From positions 1 to 64,000 of the forward strand of contig JADZEX010000072.1 in NCBI GenBank assembly GCA_020850355.1: DNA of 64,000 nucleotides, in the 5' to 3' direction. The position numbers and the translations under genes are program-made. The DNA is from Fimbriimonadaceae bacterium (GTDB lineage: Bacteria > Armatimonadota > UBA10988). The notes under the pieces were generated by a model. That model was not told where the DNA came from. It saw only the letters and a list, made by a program, of their open reading frames with translations, and did no database searches. Positions 1,475 to 17,255 of the stretch are shown here, one piece after another. The stretch's first letter is position 1. Each line of letters starts with the position of its first letter.

Positions 1475-2658
1475 GGCAGATCCGAACGCAGTTGCTACCC
1501 CTCGAGCGGTTGACTCGGGAGCCGGGGCAGCACTTCTTCGGCTACTACGACGTGCAGCCCTTCAGCGCCGACGGGCGCTACCACCTGGTGCATCGCGTCG
1601 ACTTCCGCGACCGCCTGACCGCGGCCACGGACCGCGCCGAGATCGGCCTCGTGCGGCTGTCCGACCTGCAGTACACCGCCGTCAGCAGCACCTACGCCTG
1701 GTGCTTCCAGCAGGGCTCGATGCTGCAGTGGCATCCGGTCGACCAGGACACCCGCATCCTGCACAACGCCTTCGTCAACGACAGCTTCCGGACCCTGGTG
1801 GTCGACATCACCAGCGGCGCCCAGCAGGTGCTCTCACGTCCGCTGGCGACGGTCGATCCGCTCGGGCGCTACGGTCTCAGCGTCAACTTCGCTCGGCAGT
1901 ACGACTTCCGGCCCGGTTACGGTTACGCCGGCCCGCGCGACCCCTGGATCGATGTCGCGCAGCCGGCCGACGACGGCATCTGGCGGGTCGATTTGGCGAG
2001 CGGCAAGTCCGACCTGCTGTACAGCCTGGCCGACCTCGCGGCGCTCTTTGACCACCCCTGGTTGCCCGGCGCCAAGCTGCTGATCAACCACCTCACCTGC
2101 AACTCGGATGGCAGCCGCTTCGTGGCGCTGCTGCGCAACTTCCCGCAGCCGGGCGTGACCTGGCAGACCGCGACCATTTTCGGCGACGCCACCGGTGGGC
2201 GGCTGTGGGTCGGCAACGACTTCGGCCACGCCAGTCACTACGGCTGGCGCGATCCGGAACACCTGCTGATCTGGGCCGACTGGCGCGACGCCGGCCGCGG
2301 CCTCTCCGTGGTCAACATCGAGACCGGTGAGGCGGAGCTGCTGGACCACGACTACTTCACCGCCGATGGCCACTGCAGCTACTCGCCCGACCTGACCAAG
2401 GTGCTCTACGACAGCTACCCCACGGCCGAAGGCTACCGCCGGCTGTACCTCTACGACGTCGAGAGCCGCCAGGGCGTGACGTTGGCGGAGCTCCGCACGG
2501 CGCCGCACGCCAGTCTGGCCTGCATCGACATCCGCTGCGACCTGCACCCGCGGTGGAACCGCCAGGGCACGGCGATTTCGTTCGACAGCGTGCACGAGGA
2601 TCACCGCCACGTCTACTGGTGCGAGCTGGGCGACCTGGCGGGCCGCTGGCAGCGCTGA
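1471..2658 (+). CDS. TolB/oligogalacturonate-lyase-like propeller protein
   Basis: A 395-residue protein with no signal peptide. It starts with GQHFFGYYDVQPFSADGRYH and ends with DIRCDLHPRWNRQGTAISFDS. Both resemble the repeated SPDG/WNxDG blades of WD40-like (PD40) propellers and the oligogalacturonate lyase-like family. Other blades show as GRYGLSVNF, NSDGSRFVAL and SPDLTKVLYDS. The ATG overlaps the stop of the dehydrogenase upstream, so a sugar-catabolic pair is plausible. Whether it is a lyase or a binding propeller is undecided: conserved histidines (HFF, HC, HPRW) could bind metal, but I cannot verify the active site. Confidence 0.7.
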   Translation: MRQIRTQLLPLERLTREPGQHFFGYYDVQPFSADGRYHLVHRVDFRDRLTAATDRAEIGLVRLSDLQYTAVSSTYAWCFQQGSMLQWHPVDQDTRILHNAFVNDSFRTLVVDITSGAQQVLSRPLATVDPLGRYGLSVNFARQYDFRPGYGYAGPRDPWIDVAQPADDGIWRVDLASGKSDLLYSLADLAALFDHPWLPGAKLLINHLTCNSDGSRFVALLRNFPQPGVTWQTATIFGDATGGRLWVGNDFGHASHYGWRDPEHLLIWADWRDAGRGLSVVNIETGEAELLDHDYFTADGHCSYSPDLTKVLYDSYPTAEGYRRLYLYDVESRQGVTLAELRTAPHASLACIDIRCDLHPRWNRQGTAISFDSVHEDHRHVYWCELGDLAGRWQR

Positions 2659-2686
2659 ACCGCGCCTGCCGAGCCGCGGCGCGGGC

Positions 2687-2715
2687 TTGACAGATCCACA
2701 GCTCCGGGGCACAGT
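2687..2715 (+). promoter_or_regulatory. Promoter of rmlC-like gene, predicted leaderless
   Basis: TTGACA at 2687-2692 is separated by 17 bp from CACAGT at 2710-2715. The start codon at 2722 begins only 6 nt after the -10 hexamer, so initiation at the normal distance would place the first transcribed base at or next to the ATG. No Shine-Dalgarno sequence is present. Confidence 0.6.
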
Positions 2716-2721
2716 GCGGCC

Positions 2722-3303
2722 ATGGGAACCGACTGCGTGGTGACGCCCGAGACCGTCCGCGCGCCGCGCCGCACGGCGACGGCGATCGCGGGCGTCTGGC
2801 ACCATCGCCTGGACTCCCACCCCGATTCGCGCGGCGACTTCACCGAGGTCTGGCGCGACGAGTGGGCGCTCTGCCGGCAGCCGGTGCAGTGGAATCTGGC
2901 CCGCAACCGGGCCGGGGTGCTGCGCGGCGTCCACCTCCACCACCGGCATCACGACTACTTGGTCCTGACCGCCGGCAGCGCGGTCTTCGGGCTGGCCGAC
3001 CTGCGGGCCGGCTCGCCGACGGAGGGCGTGCGGATCTGTCTGACGATCACCTCCGAGACCTTGCAGGGCCTGGTGATCCCCCCCGGCGTGGCGCACGGCT
3101 TCTGGTTCGCCGAGCCGGCGACGCACCTCTATGCCGTCAGCCACTACTGGGCCCACGACGACGAACTGGGCGTGCGCTGGAACGATCCCGACCTGGCGTT
3201 GCCCTGGCCGGCGGCGGTCGGCGCGCCGCTGCTGTCGCCGCGCGACCAGACTCTCGGGCCGTTGGCCGACCTGCTGCCACAAGTGCCGGTCCACCAGGCT
3301 TAG
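2722..3303 (+). CDS. dTDP-4-dehydrorhamnose 3,5-epimerase-like protein
   Basis: A 193-residue cupin of the RmlC family, which epimerises C3 and C5 of dTDP-4-keto-6-deoxyglucose on the way to dTDP-rhamnose. Typical landmarks are RGDFTEVWRDEW near residue 40, the catalytic-histidine motif RGVHLH with H71, the GVAHGFWF motif with H125, and the C-terminal GVRWNDPDLALPWP block. The length matches the family. No rmlA, rmlB or rmlD lies nearby, so the gene may serve another NDP-sugar. It ends convergently with the next gene, their stop codons overlapping. Confidence 0.85.
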   Translation: MGTDCVVTPETVRAPRRTATAIAGVWHHRLDSHPDSRGDFTEVWRDEWALCRQPVQWNLARNRAGVLRGVHLHHRHHDYLVLTAGSAVFGLADLRAGSPTEGVRICLTITSETLQGLVIPPGVAHGFWFAEPATHLYAVSHYWAHDDELGVRWNDPDLALPWPAAVGAPLLSPRDQTLGPLADLLPQVPVHQA

Positions 3304-4241
3304 GGCGCTACGCCGGCCGCCCGACGGATCGCCGCGACGGCGCGCACCACCGCCAGCCCGGCGGCCGCGTCGGTCGGTGGCGGTGGCCCGCCGCGGAGGT
3401 GGTCCACGAACCAGGCCAGCTCGCGGAGGAGCGGCAGCTCGGCGCTGAGCGGCCGGTCCTCCGAGGCCATGTCGAGACCGTCGCCCGTCGGGCGGTGGAC
3501 GGTGACGCTGCTGGCGTACCCGTCGGCCAGCACCGCCACGCCCTGCGCACAGGACAACGCAAACCACCGCCGCCGCTCCGGGGAGTTCGCCGAGACCTCC
3601 AGGCTGAGGTAGGGCTGGGCCCCGAACCAGGCGTAGCAGTGCGTTACCGCACCGGCCGGGTTGACCTCGGCCACGGCCCCCCGCAGCGCCGGCAACTCAC
3701 GCAGCACCGCCTGCGCAATGGACAGACCGTGCGGTGCCAGGATCCAGAGCACGTCCACGTCGTCGTGCGGCTGTCCCCAGCTCAGGTGCTGCATCCGCAG
3801 CCCCTGGACCGCCCCCAACTCGCCGCTGGCGGCGATCCGCGCCAGTTCCTGCACGCCCGGGTGGTACCACCACTTGTGCATCACAAAGACCCGCTCCCCG
3901 GCGGCGGCGACGATGGCCGCCGCGGACTCCTCGTCGCAGGTCAGCGGCTTCTCGACGAATAGCGGCACCTCTCGCGACAGCAGCGCCTGCACCACCGCGG
4001 CATGGGTACTGGTCGGCGTCGCCACCACGACTCCCGCGACGGCCGGCAGGGCGGACAACCGGTCGACCAGTGCGACGGCCCCCGCCTCGGCGGCGCGCTG
4101 CCGGCTGGCCTCCGAGCGCGCGACCACCGTCACGTGGCAGCCGAGGGCGACCAGATCGCGCACGATGTGGCGCCCCCATCGCCCGCAGCCAACGAGGCCG
4201 ACGGGCAGGTCGGCGCGCGCTTGAGCACAATCGGACGGCAT
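3300..4241 (-). CDS. Gfo/Idh/MocA family oxidoreductase
   Basis: A 313-residue cytosolic NAD(P)-dependent dehydrogenase. The Rossmann motif GLVGCGRWGRH lies near residue 15, ATPTSTHAAVV forms the next nucleotide-contact strand, and VEKPLTCDE holds the catalytic lysine. The C-terminal half contains HLSWGQPHDDVDVLW and a histidine-rich strand expected of the substrate domain. Proteins of this size often act on nucleotide-linked sugars, which would suit the epimerase it converges on, but this is inference. The ATG at 4241 lacks a clear ribosome-binding site. The AT-richer island begins just upstream. Confidence 0.9.
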   Translation of the reverse strand: MPSDCAQARADLPVGLVGCGRWGRHIVRDLVALGCHVTVVARSEASRQRAAEAGAVALVDRLSALPAVAGVVVATPTSTHAAVVQALLSREVPLFVEKPLTCDEESAAAIVAAAGERVFVMHKWWYHPGVQELARIAASGELGAVQGLRMQHLSWGQPHDDVDVLWILAPHGLSIAQAVLRELPALRGAVAEVNPAGAVTHCYAWFGAQPYLSLEVSANSPERRRWFALSCAQGVAVLADGYASSVTVHRPTGDGLDMASEDRPLSAELPLLRELAWFVDHLRGGPPPPTDAAAGLAVVRAVAAIRRAAGVAP

Positions 4242-4297
4242 TGGCGACGGCTCCGCGGTTCAGCGCACCCGTTCGCCGGCCCGTCAACCGATCCTCG

Positions 4298-4327
4298 CCG
4301 GCTACCCCGATCCCGTGCCTTGCGACG
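4298..4327 (+). repeat. Left copy of 30-bp direct repeat flanking the island
   Basis: This 30-bp sequence (CCGGCTACCCCGAT, then CCCGTGCCTTGCGACG) recurs at 5471-5500 in the same orientation with a single C/T difference. The two copies bracket the AT-richer gene at 4571-5413. The flanks outside the 30 bp differ apart from a weak GCCGCC similarity after each copy. Confidence 0.85.
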
Positions 4328-4570
4328 GTTGCCGCCGGTGCGCCTGGCAGTTACGGAGCTAGCCTAGACCGCGAGTTGGGCGACTCGACATCGCAGTTTG
4401 GCCTTGCGAACCTGATGCCTGTCGGTCTGGCGATGCGCTATTGTAGGAGGTGTTTGCGAGTAGCTCGTTCAGGCTTGACGCCACGCCTAGTCTAGCATAC
4501 CATCCGGCCCTGAGATGAAGTTGGTGGATGTGCGAGGACATCTAGCACGGAGGGCCAGGGAGCAGCATCG
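4328..4570. other. AT-richer leader region of the island
   Basis: No gene is visible between the left direct repeat and 4571. Base composition falls from the GC-rich background to an even mix, with runs such as GCGCTATTGTAGGAGG and TAGTCTAGCATACC. It contains the promoter at 4475-4503 and a roughly 60-nt untranslated leader. The composition matches the gene that follows rather than the chromosome around it. Confidence 0.6.
4475..4503 (+). promoter_or_regulatory. Promoter of HEPN-like gene
   Basis: TTGACG (4475-4480), a 17-bp spacer and TACCAT (4498-4503) form a sigma-70-type promoter. A GGGAG at 4558-4562 lies 8 nt before the ATG at 4571, so this transcript has an ordinary leader, unlike several chromosomal genes in this window. 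Confidence 0.6.
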
Positions 4571-5413
4571 ATGGGGAACAGAAGGTATTTCTCGGAACGG
4601 GCAGGACGCCACCCGACTGGGGGCAAGTTCGACCTAGATGGGCTTCGATCCCTGTTTCTTTCGACGTACCGACAACTGGCCTCGGATGGCTACTTCCAGG
4701 AAGCTCTTGGCTATGACTGTGTAGATGCAGGTCGAGTTCCTGGAAGTTGTGGCTCAGATCTCAATGCGTTCTTCTACACCCAGCTGGCAAGACCATCGCT
4801 CTGGCCGATCGAGGAGAAGAGCGCCGATTACTCGGAAGATGACGTCTTCGATGTCATCGAGCTACTACACGACATCTCATCCAAGGGTATTGAGGGCACA
4901 TATCACCAGTACGGTGACTGTGGTATGCATTACACCGCATTCGACCAAGATGCCGGTCGGCAGATGTACCGTCAGGCAGTGCAGCGGTTCCTGCGCCGCT
5001 ATCGAACGGGGTTCGATCTCAGCGTCGACGGCCAGATCGTAGCCATGGCACCGGACGGTCTCGGCGATCTGCTGGACCAGCCCCCGCCAAGCCGCGAGCC
5101 CGCCGGAGTCGGTGGGCTCGTAGCTCGTGCGGTGCGCAAGTTCCGCCATCGCGGTGCGACGGAGAGTGACCGACGCGAAGCGGTCAGAGACTTGGCGGAC
5201 GTGCTTGAATACCTGCGGTCCGAAGCCAAGCGTTCACTTACTTCTAAGGACGAGGGCGATCTGTTCAACATCGCCAACAACTTCGGCATCCGGCATTGCA
5301 ATGATCATCAGAAGACGGACTACGATCCGGAGATCTGGTTGGACTGGATCTTCTACTGGTATTTGGCTACCATACACGCCATCAGTCAGGTGATCGAGAA
5401 GCGGAACCAGTGA
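4571..5413 (+). CDS. Hypothetical protein with C-terminal HEPN-like motif
   Basis: A 280-residue protein with no signal peptide or membrane segment. The C-terminal third has an R-x4-H motif (R241 to H246, in IRHCNDHQKTDYD) between predicted helices, with W- and Y-rich WLDWIFYWYLATIHA after it. This is the pattern of HEPN-domain RNases and abortive-infection proteins. The N-terminal part (GGKFDLDGLRSLFLSTYRQL) is not recognised; a basic linker lies around residues 170-210. Composition is clearly more AT-rich than all neighbours, and 30-bp direct repeats flank the gene, so recent transfer is likely. The HEPN call rests on one motif and helix pattern. A non-catalytic HEPN relative or an unrelated helical protein is possible. 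Confidence 0.6.
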   Translation: MGNRRYFSERAGRHPTGGKFDLDGLRSLFLSTYRQLASDGYFQEALGYDCVDAGRVPGSCGSDLNAFFYTQLARPSLWPIEEKSADYSEDDVFDVIELLHDISSKGIEGTYHQYGDCGMHYTAFDQDAGRQMYRQAVQRFLRRYRTGFDLSVDGQIVAMAPDGLGDLLDQPPPSREPAGVGGLVARAVRKFRHRGATESDRREAVRDLADVLEYLRSEAKRSLTSKDEGDLFNIANNFGIRHCNDHQKTDYDPEIWLDWIFYWYLATIHAISQVIEKRNQ

Positions 5414-5470
5414 TCCAGATAAGGCAGCCGAGAGTGCAGCCAGCGTATTCTGGCTTGTCCGCGGCGGCCC

Positions 5471-5500
5471 CCGGCTACCCCGATTCCGTGCCTTGCGACG
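5471..5500 (+). repeat. Right copy of 30-bp direct repeat
   Basis: It differs from 4298-4327 only by T for C at the fifteenth base. Its last bases, CCTTGCGACG, provide the -35 hexamer of the promoter for the gene at 5538, so the copy next to 5538 looks like the functional original. Confidence 0.85.
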
Positions 5501-5521
5501 CTCGCCGGCGGCGGGTAGAGT
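5493..5521 (+). promoter_or_regulatory. Promoter of DUF4832-like glycosidase gene
   Basis: TTGCGA (5493-5498), a 17-bp spacer and TAGAGT (5516-5521). The -35 element lies inside the right direct repeat. A GCGGAG at 5526-5531 is 6 nt before the ATG at 5538 and can serve as ribosome-binding site. Confidence 0.55.
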
Positions 5522-5537
5522 CAACGCGGAGCCTGCC

Positions 5538-6878
5538 ATGTGGTCGTTATGCGCCTTGCTCGGTCCTGCCCTGACCGCCGCCCCGGTGGTGGTGCAGCCG
5601 GTTGAGAGCGACGCTGTCTTCGCCAATCCGCATCAGGGCTGGCAGACCTTCCACCGCACCGCCGCGGCCGATCCGGCGCTCGCCGGGTTGCCCAGCGCGT
5701 CGGCCTACTACCGCTTCTACTGGCGGGACCTCGAACCGGTCGCAGGGCAGATTGACTTCGCGCGGCTCGATGCGCTGCTGGAGCAGTGCCGGGCGGCGGG
5801 GCAGCAACTGGCCTGGCGGCTGATGTGCCTTGGCACCGACCGGCGGCCTTGCGACACGCCCGACTGGCTCCGCGCGAAGTGTCCCGGGACGGAGTTCCAG
5901 CTCGGCGACGATGGCATCACGCGGTGGGCGCCCGACCTGGACAGCCCGGTCTTCCAGGAGGCCCACGCCCGCACGGTGCGGGCGCTGGCGGCACGCTATG
6001 ACGGGCATCCGGACCTCGACCTGCTGGACATCGGCACCGTCGGCCTGTGGGGCGAGTGGCACATGTCCGGCACCGGGGTCAAGATGCCCAGCCTGGCGAC
6101 CCGGCAGGCGATCGTCGACCTGTGGCGGGGCAGCTTCCCGCGGACCGCGACGGTGATGCTGATCGGCGACCTGGACCCGCTGCGCCACGCCCTGGCGGGC
6201 GGTGCCGGCTGGCGCGCCGACTGCCTCGGCGACCTCGGCGGGTTCTCACCGACCTGGAACCACATGCAGCACTTCTACCGCCAGCAGCTTGAGAAGGCAG
6301 GCGGCAACGAGGCCTGGAAGCAGGCGCCGGTCGCATTCGAGTCGTGCTGGGACATGCGCAAGTGGGTCGCCGAGGGCTGGCCGCTGCGGACCATCTTCGA
6401 CTACGCCCTGGACCTGCACGCCAGCTACCTCAACAACAAGTCGGCGCCGCTGCCCGAGGGCTCCCGTCCCGAGGTGGAGCGCTTCCTGCGCAAGCTGGGC
6501 TACCGCCTGGTGCTCCGCCGTCTGACCCACCCCGCCACGGCGCCCGCCGGCAGCACCCTCGAGGCGGTCACCGCCTGGGACAACGTCGGCGTCGCCCCGC
6601 CCTACCACGACTATCACCTGGCCTTCCGCCTGCAACAAGCGGCCGGCGGGCCACCGCTGCTGCTGACCGATCCTACCACCCTCCGCGGCCGGTTGCCCGG
6701 GTCGTGGACCCAGACCAGCCGTCTCAGCCTGCCCGCCGACCTGCCGCCGGGCGACTCCCAGCTCGCCCTGGCCTTCGTCCGGCCCGGCGAAACGACGCCG
6801 GCGCTGCGCCTGGCGATCGAGGGGCGCGGTGAGGACGGCTGGTCTGCGCTCAGCCGAGTGACGGTGATGGCGCGGTAG
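5538..6878 (+). CDS. Exported DUF4832/GH42-like glycosidase
   Basis: A 446-residue protein beginning with a short signal peptide (MWSLCALLGPALTAAP). It continues with NPHQGWQTFHRT near residue 30 and YYRFYWRDLEPVAGQIDF, the opening of a TIM barrel as in GH42-like and DUF4832/DUF4874 proteins. GLWGEWHMSG (about residue 170) supplies a candidate acid/base glutamate. A beta-rich C-terminal domain starts near residue 330 (VLRRLTHPATAPAGSTLEA) and looks like the DUF4832 sandwich. It probably acts on polysaccharide outside the cytoplasm. The ATG at 5538 is chosen because the signal peptide starts there. Its 3' end overlaps the convergent PepSY gene by 29 bp. Confidence 0.75.
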   Translation: MWSLCALLGPALTAAPVVVQPVESDAVFANPHQGWQTFHRTAAADPALAGLPSASAYYRFYWRDLEPVAGQIDFARLDALLEQCRAAGQQLAWRLMCLGTDRRPCDTPDWLRAKCPGTEFQLGDDGITRWAPDLDSPVFQEAHARTVRALAARYDGHPDLDLLDIGTVGLWGEWHMSGTGVKMPSLATRQAIVDLWRGSFPRTATVMLIGDLDPLRHALAGGAGWRADCLGDLGGFSPTWNHMQHFYRQQLEKAGGNEAWKQAPVAFESCWDMRKWVAEGWPLRTIFDYALDLHASYLNNKSAPLPEGSRPEVERFLRKLGYRLVLRRLTHPATAPAGSTLEAVTAWDNVGVAPPYHDYHLAFRLQQAAGGPPLLLTDPTTLRGRLPGSWTQTSRLSLPADLPPGDSQLALAFVRPGETTPALRLAIEGRGEDGWSALSRVTVMAR

Positions 6879-7965
6879 GGCGCCGCCGCCAAGGCCACCA
6901 GAGATACAGACCGCTGCCGAACAGCCCAGCGGGAGTCAGACCACCGACGGTGTACAGCAGCTTGGTGACCCAACCACCGGTCAGCCCGAAGTGGAGGTCA
7001 TCGAGGGCCACCTCGAAGCGCTTTCCACGCGACGCCGTGTCGCCGCGCTGGACCAGCAACACCCGCGCGTCGGCCGGATCGAGCCAGACCTCCGCAGCTT
7101 GCGCCCATCCGCGCGGGGAGCGGAAGGCGGCTACGAAGGGCTCTCCAGAGCCGAATCCGGGCTCGACCAGCACCAGTGGCAGGTCGGGTACGGCGGCGCG
7201 GGCTGTCGCCACCAGTTGGTCCAGCCCAAGCCGTGGCCGACCAGGCTTCGGCACCACCGGCGCGGGCTCTCCGAGCCAGTGGGCCAGGCGCCCCGCCGTG
7301 ATGGTCTCGGAGACCAGCAGCACCGCCGTGGTGGTGGTCAGCAGCAGGACCGGCAGGCCGGTCAGGCCGCCGAGGTTGTGCCAGGCGAGGAGTTGTCGCC
7401 GCGGAGGTGTCCCGCGCCGCGGCCGCAGGCTGCGCCAGCAAGCAGAGCGACTGCGCGGCCACCAGGTCCAGAGCCCGGAGCCGAGCAGCACCACTGCCAG
7501 GGCGCTGCACCAGCCGTTCAGGAGGAGCCCACGAGGGCCGAGCAGCAGATTCTCATGGAACGCCGAGACCAGGCCGATCCAGAGGTCGGTCTTGCGGTAG
7601 GGTTGGTAGACGGTGCCGTCGAACGGGTCGATCTTGTAGACGATGCCGCCACTGCGACGAAGCGGGACCAGAAAGTGCGGGTAGCGGAAGTTCGGTATCA
7701 CGATCAGGCGCAGGTCCGTGAGCTGGATGGTGGGGTCAGCCTGTTGCAGGGCGGCCACCACCTGGCTGAGCGGCAGCCGCGGCTGATCGAGCGCCTGACG
7801 CCGGTAGGGATGGCGCCAGAGCAGCTCGCTCCGAATCAGCTCCGGGCCCCAGGCCAACACGCTGCCGGTGGCGCCGATCAACGCCAGCCAGCCGCCCAGC
7901 AGCAGGCCCAACCACAGGTGTACCTGGCGCCAGAGGCGTCGCCAGTCGACGGTCCGCCGTCGCAT
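6850..7965 (-). CDS. PepSY-associated TM helix protein
   Basis: A 371-residue inner-membrane protein with four hydrophobic segments: residues about 15-37 (LWLGLLLGGWLALIGATGSV), 145-165, 195-220 and 345-360. Conserved features of the PepSY_TM family are HLWLG in the first helix, FHENLLLGPRG before the second, WHNLGGLTGLP at the third and DDLHFGLTGGW before the last. Members are usually linked to siderophore uptake or reductive iron release. Its gene follows the pseudopilin gene by 54 bp on the same strand, and a Fur-like palindrome lies upstream of the pair, which agrees with an iron role. Substrate and partners are unknown. Confidence 0.88.
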   Translation of the reverse strand: MRRRTVDWRRLWRQVHLWLGLLLGGWLALIGATGSVLAWGPELIRSELLWRHPYRRQALDQPRLPLSQVVAALQQADPTIQLTDLRLIVIPNFRYPHFLVPLRRSGGIVYKIDPFDGTVYQPYRKTDLWIGLVSAFHENLLLGPRGLLLNGWCSALAVVLLGSGLWTWWPRSRSACWRSLRPRRGTPPRRQLLAWHNLGGLTGLPVLLLTTTTAVLLVSETITAGRLAHWLGEPAPVVPKPGRPRLGLDQLVATARAAVPDLPLVLVEPGFGSGEPFVAAFRSPRGWAQAAEVWLDPADARVLLVQRGDTASRGKRFEVALDDLHFGLTGGWVTKLLYTVGGLTPAGLFGSGLYLWWPWRRRPTAPSPSLG

Positions 7966-8019
7966 CGCGCCCTCCCGGCCCCGTCAGCCGGCCGTTCGCC
8001 AGCCGGCTGACGGCGCGTC

Positions 8020-8808
<789 letters not shown>

Positions 8809-9201: not shown

Positions 9202-10872
9202 ATGCGACTCCCTGGTTGGTGGATTGGCCGTGACGGTCTACGCCTGGCGATGGCAGGCCTGGTGCTGTTGGTGGCAGGCTGCGGCGGGGGACTCGCCCCG
9301 GTGCCGGACGGCTCGGCACAGCCGACGCGGGCGTGGGCAGAGCAGCAGGCGGGCTTCGATTTCCTGCCGCCGCTCAACGCGCGGCGCGACGGGGTCGGCA
9401 GCAACGTCTCGACTGCCATGCCGGTGGTTGAGGTCTGGACCGGCACCGAGGCCCAGAAGGGCGCCCTGGTGGCGTCCTTCGAACGGCCCCAAGTGCTCCT
9501 GCAAGAGGGCTGCTACAGCGTCGATTGGGACACCGCTGGCAGCGGCACCGCGTTGCCGCCCGGCACGACGACCTGCGTGATCGAAGTCTGGTGGGGCGAC
9601 CGCCAGCTCGGCTTCGTGGACTGCCAGATCGACCGCAACAACGGGAACGGCAAGAAGGCCGCTGATCCGGAGTTCTTCGGCCTTAAGAACGGTCGCACCT
9701 TGCCCATCAAGTTCGTGATCGATGCCACTGTGCCGCTGCCGCAACCGATCTCGGTGGCCGTCACCCCGTTGACTGCCTCCCTGGCGCCGGGCGGTACGCA
9801 GCAGTTCCAGGCCGCCGTGGCGCACGCGCGGCTGACCACCGTGACCTGGTCTGTCACTGAGCCCGGCGGCGGCAGTGTGGACAGCAGCGGTCTGTATACC
9901 GCCCCAAGCACGCCAGGCGTCTACCACGTCGTGGCCACCAGCGTCGCCGATCCCTCGGCGATGGCGGCGGCTGAGGTGACGGTGGTAAGCCCGGATGTGC
10001 CCCTGACGTTCGGTGGCTACGGCTCAGGTGACGGGCAGTTCCGCGGTCACATCTACTTGGCGGCTGGACCAGGCGACGAGATCTTCGCCACGGACACCTA
10101 CCCCAATCGGCGGATCCAGGTCTTCAGCAGCGGCGGCCAGTTCTTGCGGAAGTGGGGCGGCGCCGTGGGCAGTGGACCGGGCCAGTTCATCTCGCCCGCC
10201 GGCCTGGCGGTCACCACCGACGGCCTGGTCTACGTGGTTGACAATGGCCGCGATGACGTCCAGGTGTTTGACTCGCAGGGCGTCTACCAGCGGGAGTTCG
10301 GCGAGCATGGCAGCGGCCCGGGCCAGCTCTGGGTGCCGTACGACGTCGCCGTCAGCCCCGACGGCCAGAACGTCTACGTGACCGACACCGAGAACTACCA
10401 GGTCGACCAGTTCACGGCGCTCGGGACCTTCGTCCGCTCCTGGGGCGGGCGCGGTGGCGGCAACGGGCAGTTCGGTCGGCCGGAGGCGATCCACTGCGAC
10501 ACCGCGGGGAACGTCTGGGTCAGCGATGGTCAACTGCACGGGCAGAACAACCACCGCATCCAGAAGTTCGACGCGGCCGGCCAGTGGCTGGCGACCTACG
10601 GCGGGCCCAGCACGCTCAATGAGCCGATGGGCCTGATCGTGGTCGGCAACTTGCTGCACGTGGCGGACTTCCGCAACTACCAGATGGAAGCCATCAACGT
10701 GCTCACCGGCGCGACCTCCAGCATCTGGGCGCAGGGGCCGGGGAGCGCCCTCGGCCAGGTCGACAAGCCGTTCGACGTGACCGTCGATTCCCGCGGCAAC
10801 CTATACGTCGGCGAGTCCTACGAGTTCGGGTCGGGCAATGCCCGCATCCAGAAGTTCGTGGGGGTGAACTAG
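9202..10872 (+). CDS. Ig-like and NHL-repeat lipoprotein
   Basis: A 556-residue exported protein. The lipobox LVAGC places the lipid-modified cysteine at residue 27. After a 150-residue N-terminal region comes a BIG2/Ig-like domain (about 180-265, VAVTPLTASLAPGGTQQFQA to AAAEVTVV). At least five NHL blades follow, each with GxxGQF and xxDxxNxRIQ(K/V)F: near YPNRRIQVF, NGRDDVQVF, TENYQVDQF, NNHRIQKF and GNARIQKF. NHL six-bladed propellers bind proteins or carbohydrate, and secreted forms are often surface or stress sensors. The ATG at 9202 has AGGAG 6 nt upstream and starts directly at the signal peptide. A strong hairpin follows the stop. Confidence 0.85.
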   Translation: MRLPGWWIGRDGLRLAMAGLVLLVAGCGGGLAPVPDGSAQPTRAWAEQQAGFDFLPPLNARRDGVGSNVSTAMPVVEVWTGTEAQKGALVASFERPQVLLQEGCYSVDWDTAGSGTALPPGTTTCVIEVWWGDRQLGFVDCQIDRNNGNGKKAADPEFFGLKNGRTLPIKFVIDATVPLPQPISVAVTPLTASLAPGGTQQFQAAVAHARLTTVTWSVTEPGGGSVDSSGLYTAPSTPGVYHVVATSVADPSAMAAAEVTVVSPDVPLTFGGYGSGDGQFRGHIYLAAGPGDEIFATDTYPNRRIQVFSSGGQFLRKWGGAVGSGPGQFISPAGLAVTTDGLVYVVDNGRDDVQVFDSQGVYQREFGEHGSGPGQLWVPYDVAVSPDGQNVYVTDTENYQVDQFTALGTFVRSWGGRGGGNGQFGRPEAIHCDTAGNVWVSDGQLHGQNNHRIQKFDAAGQWLATYGGPSTLNEPMGLIVVGNLLHVADFRNYQMEAINVLTGATSSIWAQGPGSALGQVDKPFDVTVDSRGNLYVGESYEFGSGNARIQKFVGVN

Positions 10873-12406: not shown

Positions 12407-13408
12407 TCAGATCGTTGACGGCTCGACCGCGGCCCACTCGCCGCTGGCGCCGGAGCGGTAGACCGCCGCCAGCACGTCGCAGGTCTGCAGCAGGTCGCGG
12501 CTGCTCAGGCGCGTCGGCCGGCCGCTGCGGGCGGCGGTCAAGAAGTCATCGACCAGGGCGGCCACCCCGCTCTGGGAGCTCGGTCCATCGCTCTCGGAGG
12601 TGTAGCTCAGCGCGCCGGCACGGCCCTGCAGGTACGCCGCCAGCCGTGGCCGCAGGTCGCCCTCGGGCAGCCGGCCGAGCTCCAGCCGGCCGGTCGCGCC
12701 GCCGTCGCAGCGCAGCTCGACCACCGCGTAGTCCTCGCAGCGCAGCTCCAGATAGGCCGGGTACCACTGGCTCTGCAGCTCGGCCCGCACGGCGCAGATG
12801 CGCTGTCCCAGCGCGGCCTCCAGCCAGAGCACCCCATAGCCGCTGAAGATCGCCGCTTCACCGCCGCTGAGCGCCGTCGCCGGCAGCTCGTCGTCGCGGA
12901 AGTGCGGCGTGCTGGTGCAGTGGCGCGGCCCACCCGTCGCCAGGTAGCGGAAGCTGGCCGCCTGCGGCTGGCCCACCTCGCCGCGTCGCGCCAAGAGGTC
13001 GGCCCAGGGCTGCCCGTACCGCGTCAGCGCCAGTGCTGCCAGCAGTGGCGCGTCGGCCACGCGCAGCGCCTGCGCCAGATAGGCCGTCGCCGCGGTCGAC
13101 CCGCTGAGCGGCTTCTCACACAGCGTCGGCAACCCCTTCACCAGACAGGCCGCCGCCACCCGGTGGTTGATCGCGGGCGGCACCTGCACCACCGCTGCGT
13201 CCAGCGGCACCCGGCGCAGCAGCTCCATCGGATCGTCGTAGAACGGCACGCCAGTCTCGTGGACCAGTTGGTCCAGCCGCGCCCGGACCTCGTCCGACGG
13301 CCCGTCGTAGCCCGCCACGGCGGCGAGCTCGACGTCCGGGTCGGCCAGGACCGTCCGGGCGTACTCTTCATGCCCCCACAGCCCCAACACGCCAACCCGC
13401 AACGGCAT
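12407..13408 (-). CDS. Gfo/Idh/MocA family oxidoreductase
   Basis: A 333-residue protein with N-terminal RVGVLGLWGHEEYAR in the Rossmann position; it lacks the usual GxGxxG glycines. CEKPLSGS, with the catalytic-type lysine, lies near residue 105. The degenerate dinucleotide motif may mean altered cofactor binding or a non-catalytic member. The start at 13408 has GGAGAG 5 nt upstream; another ATG 18 nt upstream is in frame but worse placed. It is divergent from another family member at 13529, with 120 bp between them. Confidence 0.85.
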   Translation of the reverse strand: MPLRVGVLGLWGHEEYARTVLADPDVELAAVAGYDGPSDEVRARLDQLVHETGVPFYDDPMELLRRVPLDAAVVQVPPAINHRVAAACLVKGLPTLCEKPLSGSTAATAYLAQALRVADAPLLAALALTRYGQPWADLLARRGEVGQPQAASFRYLATGGPRHCTSTPHFRDDELPATALSGGEAAIFSGYGVLWLEAALGQRICAVRAELQSQWYPAYLELRCEDYAVVELRCDGGATGRLELGRLPEGDLRPRLAAYLQGRAGALSYTSESDGPSSQSGVAALVDDFLTAARSGRPTRLSSRDLLQTCDVLAAVYRSGASGEWAAVEPSTI

Positions 13409-17152: not shown

Positions 17153-17255
17153 CCAGAAAGGGGTCAGGACCATTTACTGCGTAAATGGTCCTGACCCCTT
17201 TCTGGTGACCCCTTTCTGGGGTCGCAGTAAATGGTCCTGACCCCTTTCTGGGGTC
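17153..17255. repeat. REP-like inverted-repeat cluster
   Basis: Arms 17153-17177 and 17181-17205 are a perfect 25-bp inverted repeat (CCAGAAAGGGGTCAGGACC, then ATTTAC) around a 3-nt loop. A third copy of the right arm follows at 17227-17251. Two small GACCCC-TTTCT-GGGGTC hairpins lie at 17207-17223 and 17239-17255. The right edge provides the TGA stop of the DUF3604 gene (17254-17256), and the left edge abuts the purA promoter. Confidence 0.9.

Follow-up and report, generated by a model that had tools for sequence, protein, structure and literature searches.

In the 64,000-nucleotide stretch of Fimbriimonadaceae bacterium DNA analysed here (contig JADZEX010000072.1, positions 1 to 64,000; hereafter the window), a lone gene for a 280-aa protein (4571-5413, plus strand) lies between two direct repeats, and the stretch between these repeats looks like a horizontally acquired insertion. 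The protein belongs to an unnamed, uncharacterised and widely transferred two-domain family. Insertion-like anatomy, foreign composition, the spread of the family, a set of conserved residues and the defence-type neighbourhoods of some relatives were all observed. The full reading, to which we give an even chance, is of a horizontally acquired one-gene effector of the abortive-infection type; its HEPN-like site would be a variant one, and it is presumed to act as an RNase and to defend against phages.

The repeats have 30-bp cores at 4298-4327 (left) and 5471-5500 (right), both on the plus strand, which differ at one base. This confirms the description in a first-pass annotation made from the sequence, and the copies can be extended to 41 bp (4298-4338 and 5471-5511) with 37 of 41 positions identical and four different. 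With up to three mismatches allowed, the 30-mer was matched twice in the window and never in 100 shuffles, and the pair was the best of three direct repeats scoring at least 20 within 6 kb in a scan of the window. The 20-mer core is intact only at these two sites in the 6.67-Mb assembly of the same genome, with three further matches at three mismatches (one for the backwards control). A 28-mer, with up to three mismatches, was present in one of 61 genomes, namely the source genome itself, and absent from the 60 relatives. The repeats are 76% GC, and the pair encloses the only 800-bp stretch of the window below 62% GC. When 1 kb was scanned on each side of the gene in 42 relatives and the window, a comparable flanking repeat was detected only in locus L012. 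This indicates that the repeats are special to the window site and are not a family-wide feature. The L012 repeat, 153 bases long and of low identity, lies in direct orientation at 5707-5859 and 6978-7130, one copy on each side of the relative.

Repeats of 30-41 bp exceed the usual target duplications of transposons in length. They fit the action, in trans, of a recombinase on a site of 30-41 bp, or recombination assisted by short homology. A phage origin of the repeat was looked for in viral contigs, with 0 matches, and tRNA-linked integration was rejected since the three tRNAs of the window all lie far off. A possible promoter of the next gene (TTGCGA at 5493-5498, TAGAGT at 5516-5521), seen by eye and missed by the promoter scan, overlaps the right repeat. 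Elsewhere in the window, the right arm of a near-perfect palindrome (approximately 17156-17208) recurs just after it (pair 17181-17205 and 17227-17251), and this structure (17156-17251) appears to resemble REP/REPIN elements.

GC content shifts at the repeats, from 73% before them to 59.5% in the AT-richer upstream part of the insert (4339-4570, plus strand) and 57.3% in the gene, with 65% in the short tail. The GC3 of the gene is 66.4%, against 90-91% for the flanking genes (72-74% GC) and a mean of 90.3% (sd 3.2) for the 38 other coding-like ORFs of the window, which places the gene at z -7.5 and bears out the earlier remark that it is visibly more AT-rich than its surroundings. A promoter of its own had also been proposed; one sigma-70-like site does occur in the upstream part (4475-4503), but it is weak, with 9 of 12 matches and 0.4 such sites expected by chance. 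The gene is the only one between the repeats, and no integrase or recombinase is encoded in the insert. Its neighbours encode a Gfo/Idh-type oxidoreductase (minus strand) and a protein matching DUF4832 and glycosyl-hydrolase-42 (plus strand); neither is a defence gene and none was seen beside the window copy.

The nearest genomes available for comparison were of other genera. A match to the gene was found in one of 100 other genomes drawn as relatives. This match (L002 1501-1647; G086:C46) covers 47 residues at 45% identity and contains two stops; it may be what is left of a decayed copy. Synteny of the flanking genes, looked for as a route to an empty site, was not detected in the relatives: the one genome with good orthologues of both genes (G002) carries them on different contigs and not as neighbours. 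Where relatives have the downstream gene, no repeat-like sequence occurred close to it. The insertion reading is drawn from the anatomy of the site, with which all present features fit: the composition shift coincides with the repeats, these are unique within the genome and among its relatives, and 99 of the 100 other genomes drawn as relatives gave no match to the gene.

A scan of genome contigs identified 45 loci of the family, spread over many phyla; for 42 of these, identity is 39-53% across most of the protein. Usable proteins were obtained from 40 of the 45 loci, giving an alignment of 41 rows with the window protein included (the 41 members below). One supported clade of the tree mixes Pseudomonadota, Campylobacterota, Acidobacteriota and Cyanobacteriota. 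Nine pairs of loci share at least 75% DNA identity, and in seven of these, among them a Marinobacter and a Litchfieldella locus at 90.4%, homology ends less than 60 bp from the gene; the exceptions with wider homology are L031/L032 and L017/L027. Within Aeromonas, the genus of L031, the gene is present in only 2 of 37 genomes. Matches were found in 36 of 72,556 plasmid records (23 of the 36 from Streptomyces) and in one viral contig, with none among 50,697 phage records. Neither Pfam nor NCBIfam assigned a confident family, the NCBIfam matches being scattered.

The AlphaFold2 model of the whole protein (mean pLDDT 86, pTM 0.78) consists of an alpha+beta N-terminal domain (residues 1-165, 4571-5065 on the plus strand; mean pLDDT 92 when modelled by itself) and a predicted HEPN-like four-helix bundle (residues 174-280, 5090-5410, plus strand), with helices at 180-192, 198-222, 225-237 and 253-279 and pLDDT of 61-90 in blocks of this C-terminal part. 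A four-helix core is what the HEPN assignment made at first pass called for. The HEPN structures 1wty, 7bxo, 7ae6, 7ae8 and 2hsb were recovered at Z 5.1-6.5, tied with unrelated bundles (vinculin, catenin and designed proteins). Foldseek returned nothing at E 0.001 for the model or for the N-terminal domain alone, a viral fold library gave no match at E 0.001, and sequence searches of the PDB gave no significant match. The best Z for the N-terminal domain, 4.2, was to bromodomain-like entries, a match we do not trust. Residues 83-161 matched AbiJ_NTD4 (PF18863) weakly, at 18.5 bits against a Pfam cut-off of 34. C50, H112 and C117 of this domain are present in 41 of 41 members and H120 in 40 of 41 (codons within 4718-4930), and judging from this conservation the four residues could bind a metal.

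HEPN RNase character had initially been argued from an R-x4-6-H motif, R241-x4-H246. This motif is present in the window protein but is not conserved in the family: H occupies position 246 in 2 of 41 members (mostly K, Q, R or N), R241-x4-6-H occurs in three members and is absent from 38, and any R-x4-6-H in the last 130 aa was found in 6 of 41. The residues that are conserved, in all 41 members, are N236, R241 and H242, together with E213, D207, D210 and D227, while position 243 is H in 39 of 41 members and C in the window protein. The invariant N236-x4-R241-H242 motif (5276-5296, plus strand), just after helix 3, therefore supersedes the motif first proposed, which is not borne out as evidence for a HEPN RNase. 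In the model, R241-H242 directly follows helix 3 (225-237) and E213 lies within helix 2 (198-222). HEPN motifs have been placed at the end of helix 3, with an acidic residue in helix 2, in the sections consulted of a survey (PMC3710099), which also describes alternative HEPN active sites and HEPN domains without the motif that are probable RNA binders, some motif-less ones being toxic. R241-H242 and E213 thus sit where HEPN motifs sit, which is a matter of position and not proof. The HEPN assignment survives as HEPN-like with a variant site. The wider proposal of a single-gene defence or toxin cassette without an integrase is likewise retained for its lone foreign gene between direct repeats, the lack of an integrase of its own and the defence-type neighbours of some relatives, and loses its R-x4-H argument.

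Several relatives lie beside genes of defence type. L003, the member closest to the window protein by path length in the tree, carries a methyltransferase, a specificity subunit, the gene and HerA on one strand (2541-8651), and these three neighbours also match PADLOC mad2, mad5 and mad8. At L010 the gene follows a methyltransferase-specificity fusion, with a HEC-05 gene farther on. On a Methylobacterium plasmid (L071, 4228-6635), an Abi_C gene ends five bases upstream and a BrnT/BrnA toxin-antitoxin pair lies downstream; SIR2 and PIN-like genes lie upstream at L074, and a TIR gene adjoins the relative at L022. When the 149 ORFs that neighbour the gene at 40 loci were compared with PADLOC, no single family matched more than five of them, and the Pfam phage integrase family matched three. 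This indicates that most relatives are outside obvious defence islands. A Leptospira plasmid (NZ_CP092667.1) carries a partial family match and an annotated AbiJ-NTD4 protein (9262-9879 and 12553-13404) approximately 2.7 kb apart.

Some relatives have the features of integron cassettes. Of the 41 genes, 11 have the core site GTTRRRY in the 80 bases upstream of them and one has the reversed motif there; counted for the relatives, the figure is 11 of 40, compared with 28 of 366 for the remaining ORFs at these loci (p 0.0005). Downstream it is not enriched (7 versus 6 of 41). A whole-locus attC scan was uninformative, with 54 sites on the real strands and 54 on controls, so the enrichment is confined to positions just upstream of the gene. 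For the Sulfurimonas pair L019/L024 (92.9% identity over 924 bp), the shared sequence extends upstream as far as GTTAAAT and downstream as far as GTTAGAA or GTTAGAC, with a strong palindrome ahead of the downstream site (z -5.4 in L019); such borders delimit integron cassettes. At L022, attC-like hairpins flank the gene (-26.9 and -58.7 kcal/mol). Integron integrases above the cut-off were detected in 10 genomes of a set of 17 and in 4 of a set of 22, and in 7 of 10 genomes with an upstream core site versus 7 of 29 without (p 0.019), the sets not being blind. HEPN-type proteins in integron cassettes were noted as early as 2013 (PMC3710099, in the passages available), and integrons as stores of defence genes are already in print according to the accessible text of two papers (PMC12409362, PMC12444791). 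Within one literature collection, 'AbiJ' and 'integron' occurred together only in PMC3710099.

The cassette features of these relatives, namely the upstream core sites, the hairpins of L022 and the borders of L019/L024, are what would favour reading the window copy too as an integron gene cassette or the relic of one. At the window gene, however, no GTTRRRY was found in the spans searched at either end, and the repeats contain neither RYYYAAC nor GTTRRRY and fold no better than shuffles. In the source genome, whose assembly is 95% complete, the best integron-integrase match reaches 82.5 bits, below the cut-off of 265. A cassette identity for the window copy was accordingly rejected and, being mostly refuted, is highly improbable. 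It is equally far-fetched that the repeats are unrelated to the AT-rich gene, which would then be ancestral and enclosed by a local duplication that arose by chance or at an earlier time. The four differences over 41 positions and the lack of an empty site for comparison would suit such a history, but it leaves aside the coincidence of the repeats with the composition shift, their uniqueness in the genome and its relatives, and the 99 of 100 other relatives without a match to the gene.

Among the closest known systems is PDC-S32, a phage defence candidate of PADLOC-DB (models PDLC04995 to PDLC04997), to which the family is likely to be distantly related on the evidence of sequence. PDC-S32 likewise consists of one gene, of approximately 280-310 aa, with an N-terminal domain, and its members L098-L100, found with PDLC04995, have a C-terminal helical domain with N-x4-R-H, as in the window family. 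PDLC04995 matches 41 of 41 members at E ≤0.1, in output that gives no curated cut-off. The match is weak (3.6e-7 for the window protein and 8.9e-15 for the best member, whereas two members recovered by the model itself reach 2.8e-75 and 1.8e-52), and the N-terminal halves of PDC-S32 and the window family differ. No paper was found under the name PDC-S32. A relation to AbiJ-NTD4 proteins (PF18863) is plausible. These also have an alpha+beta N-terminal domain ahead of a HEPN-type domain, as far as they are described in the excerpts of PMC3710099, and AbiJ_NTD4 at E 0.1 matches 28 of 41 members. In L063, L064, L069 and L070, R-H stands at the same place as in the window family, whereas L065 and L067 keep R-x6-H, and no counterpart of the H-x4-C-G-x-H in the family's N-terminal domain was visible in the AbiJ-NTD4 rows. 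When profiles were compared with AbiJ-NTD4 proteins, the comparison failed with the 41-row alignment and aligned only weakly with an 11-row one (GIRH on GIRH, probability 18.6%). R241 and H242 are the sole invariant columns in an alignment of 19 rows (L098-L100, L063, L064, L069, L070 and 12 wider-family members including plasmid relatives at 30-45% identity), which joins remote sequences and whose N-terminal part is not to be trusted.

Two further proteins invite comparison. Tha, as characterised in the portion consulted of PMC11087260, is a lone 301-aa protein whose C-terminal domain is of HEPN type, is activated by a phage protein and is thus a functional analogue; unlike the window protein it has the canonical R265-x4-H270 and is borne by S. 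aureus prophages, and the two are set side by side by description only. The HEPN family from integron cassettes (PDB 3jrt, included in the part of PMC3710099 consulted) was not returned by the PDB sequence searches, and the window copy is no cassette.

In the proposed mechanism, the N-terminal domain would sense a phage-linked trigger and hold the protein off until then. The C-terminal HEPN-like bundle, probably dimeric, would then cleave cellular or phage RNA, at a variant site that may be formed by N236, R241 and H242 together with the helix-2 acid E213. An unlikely alternative accepts the same family and insertion and takes the C-terminal domain for no nuclease at all, so that it would bind RNA or a partner protein and block growth or phage development without cleavage. 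The rarity of R241-x4-6-H (3 of 41 members) speaks for this, as do the motif-less HEPN domains held to be probable RNA binders, some of them toxic, in the text seen of PMC3710099. However, the alternative active sites described there, and the invariance of N236, R241 and H242, where a HEPN active site would lie, along with that of the helix-2 acid, suggest a chemical role. It is similarly improbable that the protein has no part in defence and is a mobile stress, regulatory or metabolic protein that shares the helical bundle and, like much cargo, is enriched in mobile contexts. The majority of relatives' neighbour ORFs are without a defence role, and the lack of a confident Pfam or NCBIfam assignment would also accord with such a protein. 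Against it stand the PDC-S32 signal in all 41 members, the position of the gene within the restriction operons of L003 and L010, and the TIR, Abi_C and SIR2 neighbours.

A broader and tentative extension of the effector reading, rather unlikely as a whole, is that the family represents an unrecognised class of single-gene immune effectors with N-x4-R-H in place of R-x4-6-H, a site that would be common to PDC-S32 and part of AbiJ-NTD4. Such genes would spread alone via restriction operons, plasmids and an integron cassette and, in the window, by insertion of the single gene at a 30-41 bp repeat, catalysed by a trans-acting recombinase. If true, an unnamed family that crosses phyla would join the single-protein abortive-infection effectors, and the pair of residues to mutate would be corrected. 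The R-H dyad common to PDC-S32 and some AbiJ-NTD4 proteins raises the question of whether a HEPN-like bundle can cleave RNA with an adjacent arginine and histidine. A defence-type gene that travels by itself along different routes, being found in restriction operons, on plasmids, in cassette-like settings and, here, as a solitary insertion, would, if right, be a clear case of its kind.
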